NCBI RefSeq assembly: GCF_009827405.1
Contig: NZ_WTYY01000003.1
Location: 434,001-498,000 of the forward strand
Length of the DNA stretch: 64,000 nt
Direction of reading: 5' to 3'
Origin: Alteraurantiacibacter aestuarii
Lineage (GTDB): Bacteria > Pseudomonadota > Alphaproteobacteria > Sphingomonadales > Sphingomonadaceae
The notes beneath the pieces are model-generated. The model was not told where the DNA came from, made no database searches, and worked only from the letters and a program-made list of their open reading frames with translations. Shown here in pieces: positions 6,810 through 17,561 of the stretch. A program made the position numbers and the translations under genes. Every line of letters begins with the position of its first letter. The first letter of the stretch is position 1.

Positions 6810-7384
6810 GCAGGCATCTCCCCCAGATTGCGCAGCGCCGCCAGCACTTGCAGCAAAGGCATGCCCAGCACGGTGAAATGATCGCCTTCGATCTGTTCGA
6901 ACAATTGCACGCCGGGTCCCTCTATCCGAAAAACCCCCACGCAATAGCTGACCTGCGGCCATTCTTCATCGAGATATGCCTCGATGAAGCTCTCACTCAG
7001 GGGACGAACATGCAACGATGCCATCGCCGCACAGCTCCATACGATTTCGCCGCGCTGCGCGATGGCGGCTGCCGAATGGAGCTGCATTTCGCGCCCGGAA
7101 AAGAACCGCAGATGCCGGGCGGCTTCATCCCGGCTGCCCGGCTTGTCAAACCGCCGGCCACCAGCGACCACCAGCGAATCGCTGCCCAGCACCAGACTTT
7201 CCCCACCATCCACCGCCAGTGCCTTGGCTTTGGCCAGCTCCACGGCGATCCGGCCCGGCAGTGCGCCTTCCAGTTGCTGCTCCAGCGCGCGCTCATCAAT
7301 GTCGGCACTGCGCGCGTCGAAACGCACACCGGCGGCATCCAGCATGGCCTTGCGGGAGGCGGATTTGGAGGCGAGTATAATCAT
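6806..7384 (-). CDS. maf: Maf family nucleotide pyrophosphatase
   Basis: This 192-residue Maf/HAM1-fold protein hydrolyses non-canonical or methylated nucleoside triphosphates. It has the N-terminal ILASKSASRKAML substrate loop, the ADIDERAL acidic block, KAKALAVDGGESLVLGSDSL with the metal-binding aspartate, and the GREMQLHSA region. The subgroup (dTTP/UTP or m7GTP) is not settled by these motifs. It sits 21 bases after the PDRP gene and overlaps aroE by four bases. Confidence 0.9.
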   Translation of the reverse strand: MIILASKSASRKAMLDAAGVRFDARSADIDERALEQQLEGALPGRIAVELAKAKALAVDGGESLVLGSDSLVVAGGRRFDKPGSRDEAARHLRFFSGREMQLHSAAAIAQRGEIVWSCAAMASLHVRPLSESFIEAYLDEEWPQVSYCVGVFRIEGPGVQLFEQIEGDHFTVLGMPLLQVLAALRNLGEMPA

Positions 7385-7405
7385 TGGAGCAAGATCATAG
7401 CGGCA

Positions 7406-8251
7406 TCAGATTGGCTTGGGGCCAGACTGTGGCGGCGTATCGCGTGCAGCGCGTTCCTGATGGAGCTTGATCACGGCCGCCGCGGTTTCCTCGATCGATC
7501 GGCGGGTGACATCGATCACCGCCCAGCCATTGTCGGCAAACATGCGCCGGGCAAAGCTCAGCTCCTTTTCCACGCGGCTCTCATCGACATAGGCCGTTTG
7601 CGCCTTTTCATTGAGTGACAGCAGCCGGTTGCGGCGGATCTGGATCAACCGCTTGGGCGCAGTGGTCAGGCCCACCACCATCGGCCCGCGCAGGCGAAAC
7701 AGCGATGTGGGGGGCGGGCTTTCCACCACCAGCGGAATATTCGCCACCTTGAAACCGCGATTGGCGAGGTAAATGCTGGTGGGCGTTTTCGACGTGCGCG
7801 ACACGCCCGCCAGCACGATGTCCGCTTCCTCCCAGTTTTCCCATCCGATCCCGTCATCATGGGCGATGGTGAACTGGATCGCATCGACGCGCCTGAAATA
7901 AGCCTCGTCCATCACGTGGCGGGCACCGGGGCGCGAATGGGCTTCCTGGCCCAGCCTTTCGGCCAGTGCGTGCGTCACCGTATCCAGCACCGCCACATGC
8001 GGCAGTCCCAGAGTCCTGCACCGTTCTTCCAGGTGGCCCCTTGTCTCCGGATTGGCGAGCGTAAAAAGTACCAGGCCGGGGTTGGCGGTGAAATCCTGCA
8101 GGATCCGGTCCAGGTGCTGCTTGGAGCGCACCATCGGCCAGAAATGGCGCGTGACATCGGCGCCATCGAACTGCGCCAGCGCAGCCTTGGCGATCATCTC
8201 GAGCGTTTCGCCGGTCGAGTCAGACAGGAGGTGAAGATGCAGCCGGGCCAT
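7406..8251 (-). CDS. Pyruvate phosphate dikinase / PEP synthase regulatory protein (DUF299)
   Basis: This 281-residue bifunctional kinase/pyrophosphorylase switches PPDK or PEP synthase by ADP-dependent phosphorylation of the enzyme. The family signature is the N-terminal LHLLSDSTGETLE and the P-loop GVSRTSKTPTS at 149-159, followed by IYLANRGFKVANIPLV. ATG at 8251 starts exactly at the family N-terminus; the frame is open to 8320, but that part lies in the candidate origin. A DnaA-box-like nonamer (8251-8259) abuts the start codon. In Caulobacter the homologous gene flanks the origin opposite hemE. It is the first gene of a five-gene leftward operon. Confidence 0.93.
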   Translation of the reverse strand: MARLHLHLLSDSTGETLEMIAKAALAQFDGADVTRHFWPMVRSKQHLDRILQDFTANPGLVLFTLANPETRGHLEERCRTLGLPHVAVLDTVTHALAERLGQEAHSRPGARHVMDEAYFRRVDAIQFTIAHDDGIGWENWEEADIVLAGVSRTSKTPTSIYLANRGFKVANIPLVVESPPPTSLFRLRGPMVVGLTTAPKRLIQIRRNRLLSLNEKAQTAYVDESRVEKELSFARRMFADNGWAVIDVTRRSIEETAAAVIKLHQERAARDTPPQSGPKPI

Positions 8252-8551
8252 GTGGACAAATACCAGCATAAACCACGGGAGAGAGCGGCGGACAAGCATG
8301 GGAGAGGATTCCACCCCCACTACCGGCTCTTTCAGGCGCAGGCTTGTGGACAGGCCGATGTGGTTTTGGACAGGCTGGGGATAATGGGGAGAAGCTTTGC
8401 TTGACCAGTCAAGACCAGCGAGTCGCAGTGCAACCGCCTCTGTTCATTCCGGGAGAAATCGGGCAAGGGCGCGCTATCCCCGAAATCCACAGGACCAACA
8501 GACTCCTGCAACCTATATAAATATATAGATATATATTGTTTGGACCCCTCG
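8252..8551. other. Candidate chromosomal replication origin (oriC)
   Basis: This 300-base gap separates the leftward PDRP-maf-aroE-coaE-dnaQ operon from the rightward hemE-rho-mnmE-mnmG-rsmG-parAB row. The same arrangement surrounds the Caulobacter origin. It contains relaxed DnaA-box-like nonamers: TGTGGACAA at 8251-8259 (one mismatch to TGTGGATAA), TGTGGACAG at 8345-8353 (two), TTTGGACAG at 8365-8373 (three), TGGGGATAA at 8376-8384 (one) and AAATCCACA at 8483-8491 (two, opposite strand). Three GANTC sites, the CcrM methylation target, occur at 8307, 8420 and 8501. An A/T tract ends the region. I found no CtrA site TTAA-N7-TTAA. No exact consensus DnaA box is present, so the assignment rests mainly on gene order and strand switch. 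Confidence 0.75.
8514..8541. other. A/T-rich tract, candidate DNA unwinding element and hemE promoter
   Basis: 26 of these 28 bases are A or T, mostly alternating TATA/ATAT steps, in a genome segment of about 63% GC. Such tracts are the melting element of bacterial origins. It lies at the hemE edge of the gap, 22 bases downstream of the last DnaA-box-like nonamer. Because it directly abuts the hemE start, it may also hold the -10 element of the hemE promoter. Confidence 0.65.
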
Positions 8552-9577
8552 ATGCCTGGCCTTCTTCTCAATACTTTGCGCGGTGCAGTGACCGATCAGC
8601 GACCCGTGTGGCTGATGCGGCAGGCTGGCCGATACCTGCCTGAATATCGCGCCCTCAGGGCCGAAAAGGGCGGCTTTCTGGAACTGGTTTACGATAGCGA
8701 CGCTGCGGCCGAGGTCACCCTCCAGCCGATCCGCCGTTTCGGCTTTGACGGGGCAATCCTGTTTTCCGATATCCTGATCGTTCCCCATGCGCTGGGGCAG
8801 AATCTGCAATTCCTGGCAGGCGAGGGCCCGCATCTCTCGCCGCGGCTGGTGGATGCCACGCTCAGCTCGCTTGAAGCTGCCCCGCATCATTTTGAGCCGG
8901 TGTACGAGACCGTTCGCAAGGTGCGGGCGGCCCTGGGTCCTGAAACCACCATGTTGGGCTTCATTGGCTCTCCCTGGACCGTGGCGACCTATATGGTGAC
9001 GGGAGAGGGCAGCCGGGATCACCATGTGGCGCGCGCAATGGCCTATCGCGACCCGGTGGCCTTTGCCGAGATCATCGATGCGATCGTCGAAAGCTCGATC
9101 ACCTATCTTTCCGGCCAGATCGAAGCGGGTGCCGAGGCGGTGCAATTGTTTGACAGCTGGTCCGGCAGTCTCTCCCCGCAGCAGTTCGAACGCTGGGTGG
9201 TCGCGCCCACGGCGCGCATCGTCGATACGATTCGCCAGCGCCATCCGCACGTGCCGATCATTGGCTTTCCAAAGGGCGCTGGCGGCAAATTGCCCGCCTA
9301 TGCGCGGGAGACCGGCGTTGATGCCATCGGCGTCGATGAGACTGTCGATCCGCACTGGATTCACCGCGAATTGCCAGCCAGCATGCCTGTGCAGGGCAAT
9401 CTTGATCCGCTGCTGCTGATATCGGGCGGGGCGGAGCTGGAGGAAGCGGCACGCACGGTGCTGCGTGCCTTCGAAGGGCGCCCGCATGTCTTCAACCTGG
9501 GTCACGGGATCGACAAGACCACTCCCATCGCCCATGTTGAACGTCTGCTCGAGATCGTCCGGTCGGACAAGGCCTGA
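8552..9577 (+). CDS. hemE: Uroporphyrinogen decarboxylase
   Basis: This 341-residue enzyme removes four carboxyl groups from uroporphyrinogen III to give coproporphyrinogen III in haem synthesis. The signature VWLMRQAGRYLPEYR lies at residues 19-33, the second signature GSPWTVATYMVTG follows near 140, and the catalytic aspartate is in FDGAILFSDI. ATG at 8552 is preferred; TTG at 8540 would add four residues. Neither has a Shine-Dalgarno sequence and an A/T tract lies immediately upstream, so the message may be leaderless. It begins the rightward row from the origin. Confidence 0.95.
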   Translation: MPGLLLNTLRGAVTDQRPVWLMRQAGRYLPEYRALRAEKGGFLELVYDSDAAAEVTLQPIRRFGFDGAILFSDILIVPHALGQNLQFLAGEGPHLSPRLVDATLSSLEAAPHHFEPVYETVRKVRAALGPETTMLGFIGSPWTVATYMVTGEGSRDHHVARAMAYRDPVAFAEIIDAIVESSITYLSGQIEAGAEAVQLFDSWSGSLSPQQFERWVVAPTARIVDTIRQRHPHVPIIGFPKGAGGKLPAYARETGVDAIGVDETVDPHWIHRELPASMPVQGNLDPLLLISGGAELEEAARTVLRAFEGRPHVFNLGHGIDKTTPIAHVERLLEIVRSDKA

Positions 9578-11518: not shown

Positions 11519-11540
11519 AATTGTGGTGCACTGACAAGGA

Positions 11541-11567
11541 AACGGGGAGCTTCGGCTCCCCGTTTTG
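11541..11567 (+). terminator. Rho-independent terminator after rho
   Basis: A perfect ten-base-pair stem, AACGGGGAGC (11541-11550) and GCTCCCCGTT (11555-11564), encloses a very stable TTCG tetraloop and is followed by a short T-run. It lies 22 bases after the rho stop codon and separates hemE-hemJ-rho from the downstream DUF6489/mnmE unit. Confidence 0.92.
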
Positions 11568-11700
11568 CGTTTGGGCCAGATGTGCGTTCGGCCAGCAATT
11601 TGTGCCCACCACTGGAAATTTCCACCGTCTTGCTCATATATGACACTTGGACGCGTATCTCGCCAAGGCGGCGATGCGCCGCAAGTGAAGGGCATGTGCC

Positions 11701-11970
11701 ATGAAAATGAATATCGAGATCGATTGCTCCCCGGAGGAAGCACGCCGTTTCATGGGCCTGCCCGATGTGGAGAAGGCCAATGCGGCCTATGTCGACGCCA
11801 TCAGCAATGCGATGAAGGGTGTGTCCAGTGTCGACCAGCTGGAGGATTATGCCAAGCAGCTGGCGCCGATGGGTCAGCTGGGGCTGAAGATGTTCCAGAA
11901 CTTCATCGAGAATTCGATGGGCCAGGCTGGAAGCACGCCTTCCGGGAAGAACCGCTCCTCAGGCAACTGA
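11701..11970 (+). CDS. DUF6489 family small protein
   Basis: This 89-residue soluble protein opens with MKMNIEIDCSPEEARRFMGL and continues with PDVEKAN, the signature of DUF6489. That family is found beside mnmE or rho in sphingomonads and has no assigned function. The C-terminal half is a predicted amphipathic helix (GLKMFQNFIENSMGQ) with a serine/glycine-rich tail. It has no signal peptide or membrane segment. It ends eight bases before the mnmE start, suggesting co-transcription. Confidence 0.8.
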   Translation: MKMNIEIDCSPEEARRFMGLPDVEKANAAYVDAISNAMKGVSSVDQLEDYAKQLAPMGQLGLKMFQNFIENSMGQAGSTPSGKNRSSGN

Positions 11971-11978
11971 CCTCCCCG

Positions 11979-13256
11979 ATGATGGACACGATATTCGCGC
12001 TTTCGAGCGGAGCGCCGCCGGCGGGTATCGCAGTCATCCGGGTAACCGGCCCGGCAGCGGGTGATGCTCTCGGCAGGCTGGCAGGAAAATTGCCGGTTCC
12101 CAGGCAGGCCACGCGCGCATGGCTGACCGATGATCGGGGCCAGCGGCTGGATGATGGCCTTGTGCTGTGGTTCCCCGGCCCGGCATCGGTGACCGGAGAA
12201 GATCTGGCCGAATTTCACTTGCATGGCGGCCGCGCGGTCATCGCTGCGGTGGAAGCCGCTCTCTCAGCCATTCCCGGCCTGCGCAAGGCGAGGGCGGGTG
12301 AGTTCACCCGCCGTGCCTTTGCCAATGGCCGGATAGATCTGGCGGAGGCCGAAGGCCTCGCGGACCTGCTCTCGGCAGAGACCGAACTGCAGCGACAGGC
12401 GGCTATCCTTTCAGCAGGCGGGCATTTGTCGCGCCAGGTGGAGGGTTGGCGTGAACAGCTACTGCATTTGTCTGCGCAGGTCGAAGCCGTCCTCGATTTT
12501 GAGGATGAGGACGATGTCGATGCGCTGCCCGCCGGATTTGCGCAGGATATCGAAGCTCTGGCGCTATCGCTGAGGCAGGCCCTTGATGCTCCGTCCGCGG
12601 AACCCTTGCGGGAGGGATACCGGGTGGCGCTGGCTGGACCGCCAAATGCTGGTAAATCCACACTTTTCAACGCTTTGCTTGATAATCAGGCGGCCATTAC
12701 CGCCGCCATTCCCGGCACCACGCGCGATGTGCTGGTCAGGCCTGTTTCCATGGGTGGCGTGCCGTTTTCCTTCGTCGATATGGCCGGACTTCGCACCGAA
12801 AGCGGAGATGAGATCGAGGCCATCGGAATAGATCGTGCCCATGGCGAAATTGCCCGCGCAGACCTGGTGCTGTGGCTTGGCGCGGAAGGGGCTGGTCCTG
12901 CAGGCGCGTGGGAGATTGATGCGCAGTGCGACCGCGAAGACCACTGCCCCAAGCTCACCCCCGCGTTTCGCATCTCCGCTGTGACGGGGGAGGGGATGGA
13001 CGCGTTGAAGTCCGCCCTGGTCATCCATGCCAGCGGGCAGTTGCCCCGGCCCGGCGAGCTGGCGCTGAACAGGCGGCAGCGTGATCTGGTGAGCCTCGCG
13101 GCCGACGAGCTGGGCGCGATTGCAGGTGAACGCGACCTCCTGCTGGTCGCTGAAAGGCTGCGTCAGGCGCGGCTTGCCTTTGATGCGCTGCTGGGACGCA
13201 CGTCGACAGAGGATGTTCTCGATGCGCTGTTCGGCCGGTTCTGCATCGGCAAGTAG
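11979..13256 (+). CDS. mnmE: tRNA modification GTPase MnmE
   Basis: This 425-residue GTPase works with MnmG to add carboxymethylaminomethyl groups to U34 of some tRNAs. It has the N-terminal folate-binding domain (TIFALSSGAPPAGIAVIRVTG), the helical domain, an inserted G domain with P-loop GPPNAGKST at 220-228, switch sequence PGTTRD, G3 motif DMAGLR at 267-272, and the C-terminal FCIGK. The NKxD (G4) motif is not obvious: the expected place reads AQCD at 315-318. Two adjacent ATGs (11979, 11982) are possible starts; the reading frame upstream overlaps DUF6489. A parS site lies just downstream. Confidence 0.95.
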   Translation: MMDTIFALSSGAPPAGIAVIRVTGPAAGDALGRLAGKLPVPRQATRAWLTDDRGQRLDDGLVLWFPGPASVTGEDLAEFHLHGGRAVIAAVEAALSAIPGLRKARAGEFTRRAFANGRIDLAEAEGLADLLSAETELQRQAAILSAGGHLSRQVEGWREQLLHLSAQVEAVLDFEDEDDVDALPAGFAQDIEALALSLRQALDAPSAEPLREGYRVALAGPPNAGKSTLFNALLDNQAAITAAIPGTTRDVLVRPVSMGGVPFSFVDMAGLRTESGDEIEAIGIDRAHGEIARADLVLWLGAEGAGPAGAWEIDAQCDREDHCPKLTPAFRISAVTGEGMDALKSALVIHASGQLPRPGELALNRRQRDLVSLAADELGAIAGERDLLLVAERLRQARLAFDALLGRTSTEDVLDALFGRFCIGK

Positions 13257-13264
13257 CCGCCCGG

Positions 13265-13280
13265 TGTTCCACGTGAAACA
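13265..13280. other. parS site 1 (ParB-binding palindrome)
   Basis: The 16-mer TGTTCCACGTGAAACA differs from the consensus TGTTTCACGTGAAACA at one base. It lies in the 69-base gap between mnmE and mnmG, about 4.8 kb from the candidate oriC and 3.3 kb before parB. ParB loads here and spreads to form the segregation complex. Confidence 0.93.
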
Positions 13281-15185: not shown

Positions 15186-15808
15186 TTTCCACCGAGGAAG
15201 AAGCGCGCACCTATTGCGCAAACCTGTGCGATGCGGCGGGCATGGAGCGGCTGACCGCCTTCATTGACCTGTTGGCGCGGGAAAATGAGCAGCAGAACCT
15301 GATCTCCAACAACAGTCTGGAATCGGTGTGGCAGAGGCATATTGCCGATAGTCTCCAGCTGCTTGCGCATGTTCCACGTGAAACATCGCCCTGGCTCGAT
15401 CTTGGCAGCGGGGCGGGCATGCCCGGGTTGATACTGGCCATCGCACGGCCGGATCTCGCCTTCCACCTGGTCGAATCGCGCAAGCGCCGGGTGAGTTGGC
15501 TGGAGAGCGTTGCCAGGGAATATTCGCTCACCAATTGCCATGTTCATGGGTCCCGTCTGGAAAATGTGGAAAGCTTTGAAAGCGCGGTAATCTGCGCGCG
15601 CGCCTTCGCTCCGCTGGGAAAACTCCTCCGCTTATCCGCCCGTTTTTCCACACAGCAGACCGTGTGGCTGTTGCCGAAGGGGCGTTCGGCAGCGCAAGAA
15701 CTGTCTGAGCAGCCCGAATCGATCAGGGCGATGTTCCACGTGGAACAATCAAGCACGGATCCGCAGGCCGGAATCGTCAAAGGGCACGGGAGGCCACCGA
15801 TCCAATGA
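15182..15808 (+). CDS. rsmG: 16S rRNA (guanine527-N7)-methyltransferase RsmG (GidB)
   Basis: This 208-residue SAM-dependent enzyme methylates G527 of 16S rRNA in the 530 loop. Visible blocks are [11 protein letters not shown], the SAM loop [12 protein letters not shown] near residues 72-83, and the acidic [12 protein letters not shown] strand. The C-terminus has an extension of about 25 residues beyond the fold. Two parS palindromes are built into the coding sequence, one within the SAM domain region (15370-15385) and one in the C-terminal extension (15732-15747). The stop overlaps the parA start by four bases. Confidence 0.95.
15370..15385. other. parS site 2, inside rsmG
   Basis: TGTTCCACGTGAAACA is identical to the site in the mnmE-mnmG gap. 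It lies inside rsmG, where it is read in the frame that gives HVPRET. About 7 kb from the candidate oriC and 420 bases before parA. Confidence 0.92.
15732..15747. other. parS site 3, inside the 3' end of rsmG
   Basis: TGTTCCACGTGGAACA is a perfect 16-base palindrome and differs from the consensus symmetrically at two bases. It is read in a different frame from site 2, giving MFHVEQ in the C-terminal extension of RsmG. It lies 58 bases before the parA start, so ParB bound here could also affect parAB expression. Confidence 0.9.
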
Positions 15809-16581
15809 TCTGTATCGCCATAGCCAATCAGAAGGGCGGTGTGGGCAAGACCACCACCGCCATCAATATCGCGACCGCCATGGCGGCGACTGGCTGGCGA
15901 ACCTTGCTGATCGATCTGGACCCGCAGGGAAATGCCTCAACCGGCATCGGCGTGGATGCGTCTCAGCGCGGCCTTTCGACCTACGACATACTGGTGGACA
16001 ATGTGCCGGTGGATGATTGCATCATGCAGTCGCGCATTCCGGGTCTCGATCTCATCCCGGCAACGGTGGATCTGAGCGGGGCGGAAATCGAACTGGTTGG
16101 TGTGGAAGAGCGCACGCATCGCCTGCGCAATGCGCTGAAGCATCATCAGGGCCACGATGTGTGCTTCATCGATTGCCCGCCTTCGCTGGGTCTGCTGACA
16201 CTCAACGCGCTGTGTGCGGCAGATACGCTGCTGGTGCCGCTGCAGTGTGAGTTCTTTGCGCTGGAAGGCCTCAGCCAGCTTTTGCAGACGGTTGAGCAGG
16301 TTCAGCAGCGTTTCAACCCCGATCTGGGTATTGTCGGCATCGTCCTGACCATGTTCGACAGGCGTAACCGCCTGACCGATCAGGTGTCCGACGATGTGCG
16401 CGAATGTCTGGGCAAACTTGTTTTTGAGGCGGTGATTCCGCGCAATGTCCGGCTGTCGGAGGCACCAAGCCACGGCCTGCCTGCGCTGGTCTATGATCAC
16501 GCATGCGCCGGAAGCCGCGCCTACATGGCGCTGGCGCGTGAGTTGATCGGCCGCCTGCCACAGGAAAGGAAAGCCGCATGA
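15805..16581 (+). CDS. parA: Chromosome partitioning ATPase ParA
   Basis: This 258-residue deviant-Walker ATPase forms DNA-bound gradients that pull ParB-parS complexes apart. It has the Walker A motif KGGVGKTT at 10-17 with the signature lysine at position 10, the ATP-contact DLDPQGNAS, Walker B CFIDCPPSLGLLT, and the C-terminal IPRNVRLSEAPSHGLPAL block typical of chromosomal Soj/ParA. It overlaps rsmG and parB by four bases each, so rsmG-parA-parB are coupled. Confidence 0.97.
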   Translation: MICIAIANQKGGVGKTTTAINIATAMAATGWRTLLIDLDPQGNASTGIGVDASQRGLSTYDILVDNVPVDDCIMQSRIPGLDLIPATVDLSGAEIELVGVEERTHRLRNALKHHQGHDVCFIDCPPSLGLLTLNALCAADTLLVPLQCEFFALEGLSQLLQTVEQVQQRFNPDLGIVGIVLTMFDRRNRLTDQVSDDVRECLGKLVFEAVIPRNVRLSEAPSHGLPALVYDHACAGSRAYMALARELIGRLPQERKAA

Positions 16582-17561
16582 GCACGCAGGAAAACGCCGA
16601 GACCACGGCCAAGCCATTGCCGCGCCGCAAGCTGGGCCGCGGCCTGGGCGCCTTGATGGGCGAGACGCGCCGTGAAGAGCCGCTGGCGCGCGCTGACGGT
16701 CAGTCTGCGGGCGATCGCGCGCAGGGTGCAACACCGGGTGCAAAACTGGGCCAGCGTGACGGTCTGGCCAGTCTGGCGATTGCAGTGATAGAGGCACATC
16801 CCGATCAGCCCCGCCGCCACTTTGCGGAGGATGCGCTGGAGGAGTTGGCCGCATCGATTGCGACGCGCGGTGTCATCCAGCCCGTGATTGTCCGCCCCTT
16901 GCCCAATGGCCGCTATCAGCTGGTGGCCGGGGAGCGCCGCTGGCGTGCTGCGCAAAAGGCGCAACTTCATGAAATTCCAGCCTTAATTCGCGATCTGGCG
17001 GACCGGGACGTGATGGCCCTGGCGCTGATCGAGAATATCCAGCGCGAAGATCTCAATCCGGTGGAGGAGGCCCGCGCCTATCAGCGCCTGTCCGAACTGG
17101 AAGACATGACACAGGCGGAAATTGCCCGTCTGGTGGAGAAATCGCGCAGCCATGTGGCCAATCTCCAGCGCCTGCTCAGCCTTCCTGCGGAAGTGCTCGA
17201 CCATCTCGAAAACGGCAGGCTGGATATGGGCCATGCCCGCGCCCTGATCGGGCGAGACAATGCGGCGGAGCTGGCGAAGCAGGCGATCGACAAGCGGCTT
17301 TCGGTGCGTGAGGTGGAAAAGCTGGCCCGCGCATCGCAGGATGGCGGCAAGGTGTCACGCCAGCGTACAGCACGCGAACCACGCGATCCTGCGCGCGATG
17401 CGGATATCGCGGCGGTAGAGAACCACCTGGAGGAATTCCTCGGCCTGCCGGTGAAGATCGCCACCGATGCCGATCCGCGATCAGGCGCGGTGACGATCAA
17501 GTACCGCACGCTCGACCAGCTGGACCTGATCTGCCAGCGGCTTACCGGCGGTGGTATCTAG
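16578..17561 (+). CDS. parB: Chromosome partitioning protein ParB
   Basis: This 327-residue CTPase clamp binds parS. It has the N-terminal ParA-activating peptide (RRKLGRGLGALMG, residues 15-27), the ParB/Srx CTP-binding domain with GERRWRAAQ and ENIQREDLNPVEEA, the helix-turn-helix MTQAEIARLVEKSRSHVAN near 175-193, and a C-terminal dimerisation domain (GSGAV-like block RSGAVTIKYRTLDQLD). About 35 alanine/glycine-rich residues link the N-terminal peptide to the core. It is the last gene of the origin-proximal rightward row; an inverted repeat follows. Confidence 0.97.
   Translation: MSTQENAETTAKPLPRRKLGRGLGALMGETRREEPLARADGQSAGDRAQGATPGAKLGQRDGLASLAIAVIEAHPDQPRRHFAEDALEELAASIATRGVIQPVIVRPLPNGRYQLVAGERRWRAAQKAQLHEIPALIRDLADRDVMALALIENIQREDLNPVEEARAYQRLSELEDMTQAEIARLVEKSRSHVANLQRLLSLPAEVLDHLENGRLDMGHARALIGRDNAAELAKQAIDKRLSVREVEKLARASQDGGKVSRQRTAREPRDPARDADIAAVENHLEEFLGLPVKIATDADPRSGAVTIKYRTLDQLDLICQRLTGGGI

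Follow-up and report, generated by a model that had tools for sequence, protein, structure and literature searches.

The window analysed in this work, a stretch of 64,000 nucleotides (C3:434001-498000), was taken from an assembly of 2.24 Mb in five contigs that is 69.7% complete. In its left part, a 300-bp intergenic gap (8252-8551; C3:442252 on its own contig) lies between two divergently oriented genes: on the minus strand the gene of PDRP (7406-8251; PF03618), which we take to be the COG1806/DUF299/RP001 protein and whose start codon was placed at 8251-8249, and on the plus strand hemE (8552-9577; TIGR01464, 390.5 bits), the start of which is either the ATG at 8552 or the TTG at 8540. A first-pass annotation had proposed this gap as a probable chromosomal origin of replication, with a gene order like that of the Caulobacter Cori neighbourhood. 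Protein family matches bore out this order, with PDRP, Maf, AroE, CoaE and DnaQ, and HPF as well, on the leftward side and hemE, rho, mnmE, mnmG, rsmG, parA and parB on the rightward side; hemJ scored slightly below its cut-off (133.2 vs 138.05 bits). The genes on both sides had also been rightly described as pointing away from the gap, but their numbers needed revision: when the genes with a family were counted, hemJ included, ten instead of nine ran leftward (1.7 to 8.25 kb) and eight instead of ten ran rightward (8.55 to 17.6 kb). From rho to the likely start of mnmE there is a stretch at 11519-11981, and the open frame between these two genes (11565-11981) gave no Pfam match.

To place the locus among its relatives, HemE was compared with named proteins, and among the best 80 of 559 matches the nearest were two MAGs (labelled Erythrobacter and Altererythrobacter) and two Alteraurantiacibacter species with 84-86% identity, followed by Novosphingobium and Erythrobacteraceae with 71-76%; the host was therefore taken to be a sphingomonad. 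A close set of 110 loci was then assembled from the own locus, the 29 top scorers among 60 relatives' genomes in which HemE matched, and the 80 named loci; some genomes may be present in both collections, and the 110 loci yielded 103 distinct gaps. A second set consisted of 28 genomes from 28 other genera in the family, taken as those that had loci among 58 matching genomes, and the two sets together gave 131 distinct gaps (L004-L033, L035-L114 and L187-L214), in which distant family members are under-represented because the sets were chosen as best HemE matches. The divergent PDRP/hemE pair was present in 110/110 close loci, with a gap of 291-386 bp, and in 49 of 50 loci of the family and order (two of these, L185 and L186, being genomes already in the first set), the sole miss, L217, being cut by a contig end. 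In the wider class, where 40 loci were picked from 97 genomes with a HemE match (G070, one of them, belongs to the same family), 32 carried the pair; in the other eight, no PDRP stood divergently less than 1.5 kb from hemE: six had no PDRP in the 6 kb retrieved, and two had it farther away or otherwise oriented.

The gap had been reported to contain five DnaA-like nonamers with one to three mismatches, and all five were recovered at one or two mismatches to TTATCCACA, the first of them starting one base to the left of the gap. This first one, box A (TTGTCCACA; 8251-8259, minus strand, one mismatch), overlaps the PDRP start codon in the window. Three more lie on the minus strand in the middle of the gap, CTGTCCACA at 8345-8353 (two mismatches), TTATCCCCA at 8376-8384 (one mismatch) and TTCTCCCCA at 8385-8393 (two mismatches), and the last, box C, is AAATCCACA followed by GG on the plus strand (8483-8493), with TCCACAGG found in 117 of the 131 gaps. 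No perfect DnaA box was found within the gap, and TTATCCACA was missing from 122/131 gaps. For a background, boxes were counted in 43,366 windows of 310 bp over 436,449 bp of contig C3: at least two boxes with at most one mismatch occurred in 48 windows at three places, and at least five boxes with at most two mismatches in 13 windows at two places, the gap being one of the places in both cases, while with TTNTCCNCA the gap was the single top place with three matches. By box count, no DnaA-like cluster in these 436 kb surpasses the gap, which ranks first or ties for first without standing out overwhelmingly. Over the 131 gaps, TCCACA occurred at 7.28 per kb vs 0.42 and 0.28 for two control hexamers, and we regard the arrangement as a predicted DnaA-box cluster beyond chance, made up of weak boxes only. 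The A/T tract of the first-pass annotation was confirmed as well: 26 of 28 bases at 8514-8541 are A or T, a count that no other 28-mer of the 436,449 bp reaches, and the tract is a likely unwinding element.

Near box A lies a nearly invariant element, ATAAACCACGG (8268-8278, plus strand), which was found exactly in 118 of the 131 distinct gaps and which forms part of a module with a regular layout: box A, 15-16 bp, ATAAACCACGG, about 218 bp, TCCACAGG, about 66 bp, hemE. TGTGGA of box A precedes ATAAACCACGG by 15-16 bp in 110/118 gaps and is absent there in eight, and where ATAAACCACGG and TCCACAGG are both present (112 gaps), the latter follows by 216-221 bp in 106. Box A was also considered as a feature of the PDRP start codon, and this was rejected, as GTGGA opens only 32/131 gaps. 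Among 102 of the 131 gaps, the distance from ATAAACCACGG to box C had an interquartile range of 216-217 bp and that to hemE one of 281-285 bp (range 277-314 bp), while the PDRP start lay 17-98 bp away. Because its distances to box C and hemE are fixed and that to PDRP is variable, the ATAAACCACGG block moves with the origin and hemE and not with PDRP, and this spacing pattern favours a role as an origin element rather than as a PDRP promoter. When the element is read as TAAACCACG, three of the nine positions depart from the DnaA box, and it could therefore be a poor DnaA contact; lying next to box A, it may be bound by an unnamed protein or else serve as an unusual DnaA contact.

The element was at one point taken to be invariant in all close relatives, and this was corrected, since it is exact in 96 of 103 close gaps and each of the seven exceptions has one mismatch. 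It was exact in 22/28 gaps of other genera; among the rest, L192 has one mismatch, L203 has a copy with two mismatches close to where the element normally lies, and no recognisable ATAAACCACGG was found at that position in L202, L207, L208 and L213. These exceptions suggest that some members of the family lost the element or never had it. A class-wide element was not supported either, the best matches being two to four mismatches off in 32 class gaps. A 13-mer, ATAAACCACGGGA, was found in 11 of 289 genomes. In three of them, all of the window's genus (G000, which is the own genome, G007 and G009), it occurs once each and always at the hemE gap, and in the other eight it belongs to a 3-kb locus without hemE or PDRP. 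In the open-access literature, as far as its accessible text goes, TAAACCACGG gave matches only in 7 papers titled on other subjects. A further conserved block, AAATCGGGCA (8456-8465, plus strand), stands 30 bp before TCCACAGG, and AA[AT]TCGGGCA was found at exactly -30 from TCCACAGG in 78/115 gaps. Over 81 sequences, from the 80 named loci plus the window, mean pairwise identity was 0.52 in the gap vs 0.19-0.38 in five neighbouring intergenic regions. The rho-mnmE region reached 0.48, from only 8 loci, and the mnmE-mnmG region, which bears a parS site here, had 0.28 of its columns conserved at 90%, the same as the gap.

The three GANTC sites that had been noted in the gap are present at 8307-8311, 8420-8424 and 8501-8505. 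By themselves they are a weak signal that is not significant (P of at least three sites = 0.085 under the gap's own first-order Markov null). The second is the conserved one, its G, A, T and C being kept in 128, 129, 125 and 129 of the 131 rows and its N position being G in 91 and T in 37. Over all 131 gaps, 684 GANTC sites were counted in 42,730 bp (16.0 per kb), vs 189 (sd 12) in first-order Markov versions. As background, the sequence flanking the named loci had 2.34 per kb, genome stretches sampled from two relatives 1.06, and the own contig 1.49. Six control pentamers (GTNAC, CANTG, CTNAG, TCNGA, ACNGT and TGNCA) were not raised in the gaps; AGNCT was raised (6.6 vs about 2), a count that includes its overlap with AGACTC, and GATC was rarer (2.6 vs 9.2). 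At the same loci, five other intergenic regions had 2.7-6.1 GANTC per kb vs 16.9 for the gap, and the gap count equalled or exceeded that of any other 320-bp window of the locus in 53 of 62 testable named loci. In 400 kb sampled from each of two relatives, G017 and G036, the gap was the top GANTC window.

This density extended to the 28 other genera, with 1-11 sites per gap and 136 in 9,212 bp vs 2.0 per kb in the flanks. From 18 bp past TCCACAGG to hemE, a segment that includes the A/T tract, at least one GANTC was found in 82/115 gaps, with 120 sites in total vs 15.6 in letter shuffles. Gaps of other families of the order had 3.9 per kb (19 gaps), and those of the class 7.6 per kb vs 1.4 in their own flanks (32 gaps). 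The window itself is a low member of the trend: its three sites all lie outside the A/T tract, and C3 contains at least five other places where 330 bp carry five GANTC. As to the enzyme, RAMA (CcrM-type) proteins were found in 33/33 relatives, and no RAMA match was found anywhere in the own assembly (69.7% complete). Its sole N6_N4 methylase match (L241 1342-2325, minus strand, around G000:C2:164240-164962) was considered as CcrM and rejected for lack of a RAMA match, and it is probably another enzyme. No report on the GANTC density of a sphingomonad oriC was found in the accessible text of the open-access literature.

A GC-skew minimum had been suggested as a check on the origin, and one was observed near the gap on the own contig: over the contiguous 276 kb of C3, cumulative skew was lowest at C3:432307, 10 kb away, and 14 of 15 pieces to the left of the gap were negative and 6 of 8 to the right positive. 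Within the window it was lowest at 7001-8000 and nearly as low again at 29-31 kb. In four complete relatives, for each of which 20 stretches of 20 kb were sampled, the minima fitted only loosely. In G017, 9/11 stretches on the left were negative and 7/9 on the right positive, with the minimum +114 kb from hemE; the respective values were 9/10, 9/10 and -30 kb in G036, 8/10, 8/10 and -325 kb in G387, and 7/11, 4/9 and -224 kb in G009. The skew turn around hemE is weak, and in G009 it is poor. In Caulobacter, parS and parAB are near the origin. Here, parA (15805-16581; PF13614, 206 bits) and parB (16578-17561; PF02195, PF17762 and PF23552), both on the plus strand, are accompanied by three putative parS sites matching GTTNCACGTGNAAC, one between mnmE and mnmG (13265-13280) and two inside rsmG (15370-15385 and 15732-15747). 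These are the only three matches in the whole assembly, all about 5-7.5 kb from the gap, with the GTTNCACGTGNAAC matches themselves placed at 13266, 15371 and 15733.

It could be argued that the gap is only a conserved divergent PDRP/hemE promoter region, in which the DnaA-like sites and ATAAACCACGG would be transcription signals. Promoters are likely there in any case between two divergent starts, an enrichment of GANTC in intergenic regions of alphaproteobacteria is described in the accessible part of PMC3973325, and the rho-mnmE and mnmE-mnmG regions each approach the gap on one conservation measure. However, such a region leaves the skew turn and the parS sites unexplained, the module keeps its length while the PDRP start moves, the 13-mer ATAAACCACGGGA occurs once per genome in G000, G007 and G009 and is therefore no general promoter, and the other intergenic regions are far poorer in GANTC at the same loci; we consider this explanation very improbable. 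Even less probable is an origin elsewhere, for example beside dnaA, with a hemE neighbourhood that merely resembles Cori: perfect TTATCCACA boxes do occur three times in the assembly (a pair at C3:515397-515417 and one at C4:325176) and two relatives have their skew minimum 224 and 325 kb away from hemE, but the C3 pair appears, as read by eye, to be inside a long isoleucyl-tRNA synthetase frame as a repeat coding YPHSYPHS, which also disqualified perfect boxes as landmarks, the 3.5-kb dnaA locus of the own assembly has two TTNTCCNCA in all and thus no denser box cluster, and dnaA, on a different contig from hemE here, lies 363-517 kb from it in 6/6 complete relatives and off the sampled skew minimum in all four relatives sampled. 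A better candidate could still lie in the missing part of the assembly.

Divergent flanks, a box cluster, an A/T tract, a skew turn and parS with parAB, by which an origin of the hemE type would be recognised, appear together at this gap. With synteny, skew, parS sites, the rigid conserved module and a distant dnaA all in its support, the proposal of an origin beside hemE was upheld as a strong prediction, and we assign a probability of roughly 0.94 to the reading that 8252-8551 is the oriC, of the hemE/PDRP alphaproteobacterial type, of an Alteraurantiacibacter-like sphingomonad. In such an origin, DnaA-ATP would assemble on box A, the middle boxes and box C, a row of weak boxes with fixed spacing, and the complex would melt the A/T tract adjoining box C. 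One fork would then run leftward through PDRP-maf-aroE-coaE-dnaQ and the other rightward through hemE-rho-mnmEG-parAB, and ParB would presumably load at the three parS sites on the rightward side, segregating the new origins.

The place beside hemE is the usual one for the lineage, and the type is already known. Origins with hemE and COG1806 are described in the accessible text of PMC1914354, and the gap is like Cori of Caulobacter crescentus (hemE/CC0001, COG1806) in its flanking genes, its weak DnaA boxes, its A/T-rich region and its GANTC sites, Cori being presented as a weak-box design in passages of PMC4468827 and as carrying 'several GANTC motifs' in those of PMC3973325. Within the Sphingomonadaceae, an oriC beside hemE has been published via Ori-Finder/DoriC, with DoriC predictions for most of the family, and the one of Sphingopyxis granuli TFA agrees with the gap in family, place, gene cluster, predicted conserved DnaA boxes and predicted unwinding element; the accessible part of that account names no ATAAACCACGG, fixed spacing or GANTC density (PMC4741004).

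In other respects the sphingomonad gaps differ from Cori of Caulobacter. The CtrA site TTAAN7TTAA was found neither in the window gap nor in any of the 131 gaps (0/131 for the consensus), and the IHF consensus WATCAANNNNTTR, searched exactly on both strands, was likewise found in 0/131. The Caulobacter G-box, TGATCCACA, was not found in the window gap and was found in 3 of the 131, and the sphingomonad gaps carry ATAAACCACGG as an extra element. Judged by these searches, the gap does not appear to be a strict CtrA-controlled Cori with its CtrA sites, IHF site and G-boxes. The loss of CtrA was harmless to growth and viability in Sphingomonas melonis, as cited in the accessible text of PMC8116508.

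On this basis we may speculate, and consider it rather doubtful, that the sphingomonad oriC is under the control of CcrM hemimethylation and not of CtrA, and that ATAAACCACGG is the site of a lineage-specific, unnamed origin-binding protein. A newly copied origin would remain in the hemimethylated state and inactive until the late-cycle appearance of CcrM. Such control is suggested by up to 12 GANTC sites, many of them from box C to hemE in and around the A/T tract, and by an oriC without CtrA or IHF consensus sites, and ATAAACCACGG would enter it as an element locked in place, 15-16 bp away from box A and some 218 bp away from box C. The main evidence against it comes from Caulobacter, which has CtrA at its origin: flow cytometry of a ccrM deletion indicated there that CcrM is not required for the control of initiation (accessible text of PMC3973325).

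Two known systems offer partial likenesses. E. coli oriC has many adenine-methylation sites, on which Dam and SeqA act. The gaps would resemble it in working only, by having many such sites, some of them in the relatives' A/T tract (compare the accessible part of PMC10073500); they differ in having GANTC and CcrM where E. coli has GATC and Dam, and in their boxes and flanking genes. The repABC origins of alphaproteobacterial secondary replicons are likewise described as GANTC-rich (passages of PMC6090056), and for repABC ori2 of Agrobacterium a hemimethylation brake has been proposed (passages of PMC11514494); unlike the gap, they are RepC-dependent and not DnaA-type chromosomal origins.

The value of these data lies in the anatomy of 131 distinct related origins rather than in the window alone. 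This anatomy consists of a module of fixed length with weak DnaA boxes, a single element that hardly varies, and CcrM sites that are far denser than in flanks and genome samples. It is set in a lineage where CtrA is reported to be dispensable (Sphingomonas melonis; PMC8116508, accessible text) and where the CtrA consensus is missing from the origin, and it reduces the problem of once-per-cycle firing in alphaproteobacteria that have no CtrA at their origin to a short list of testable mutations.
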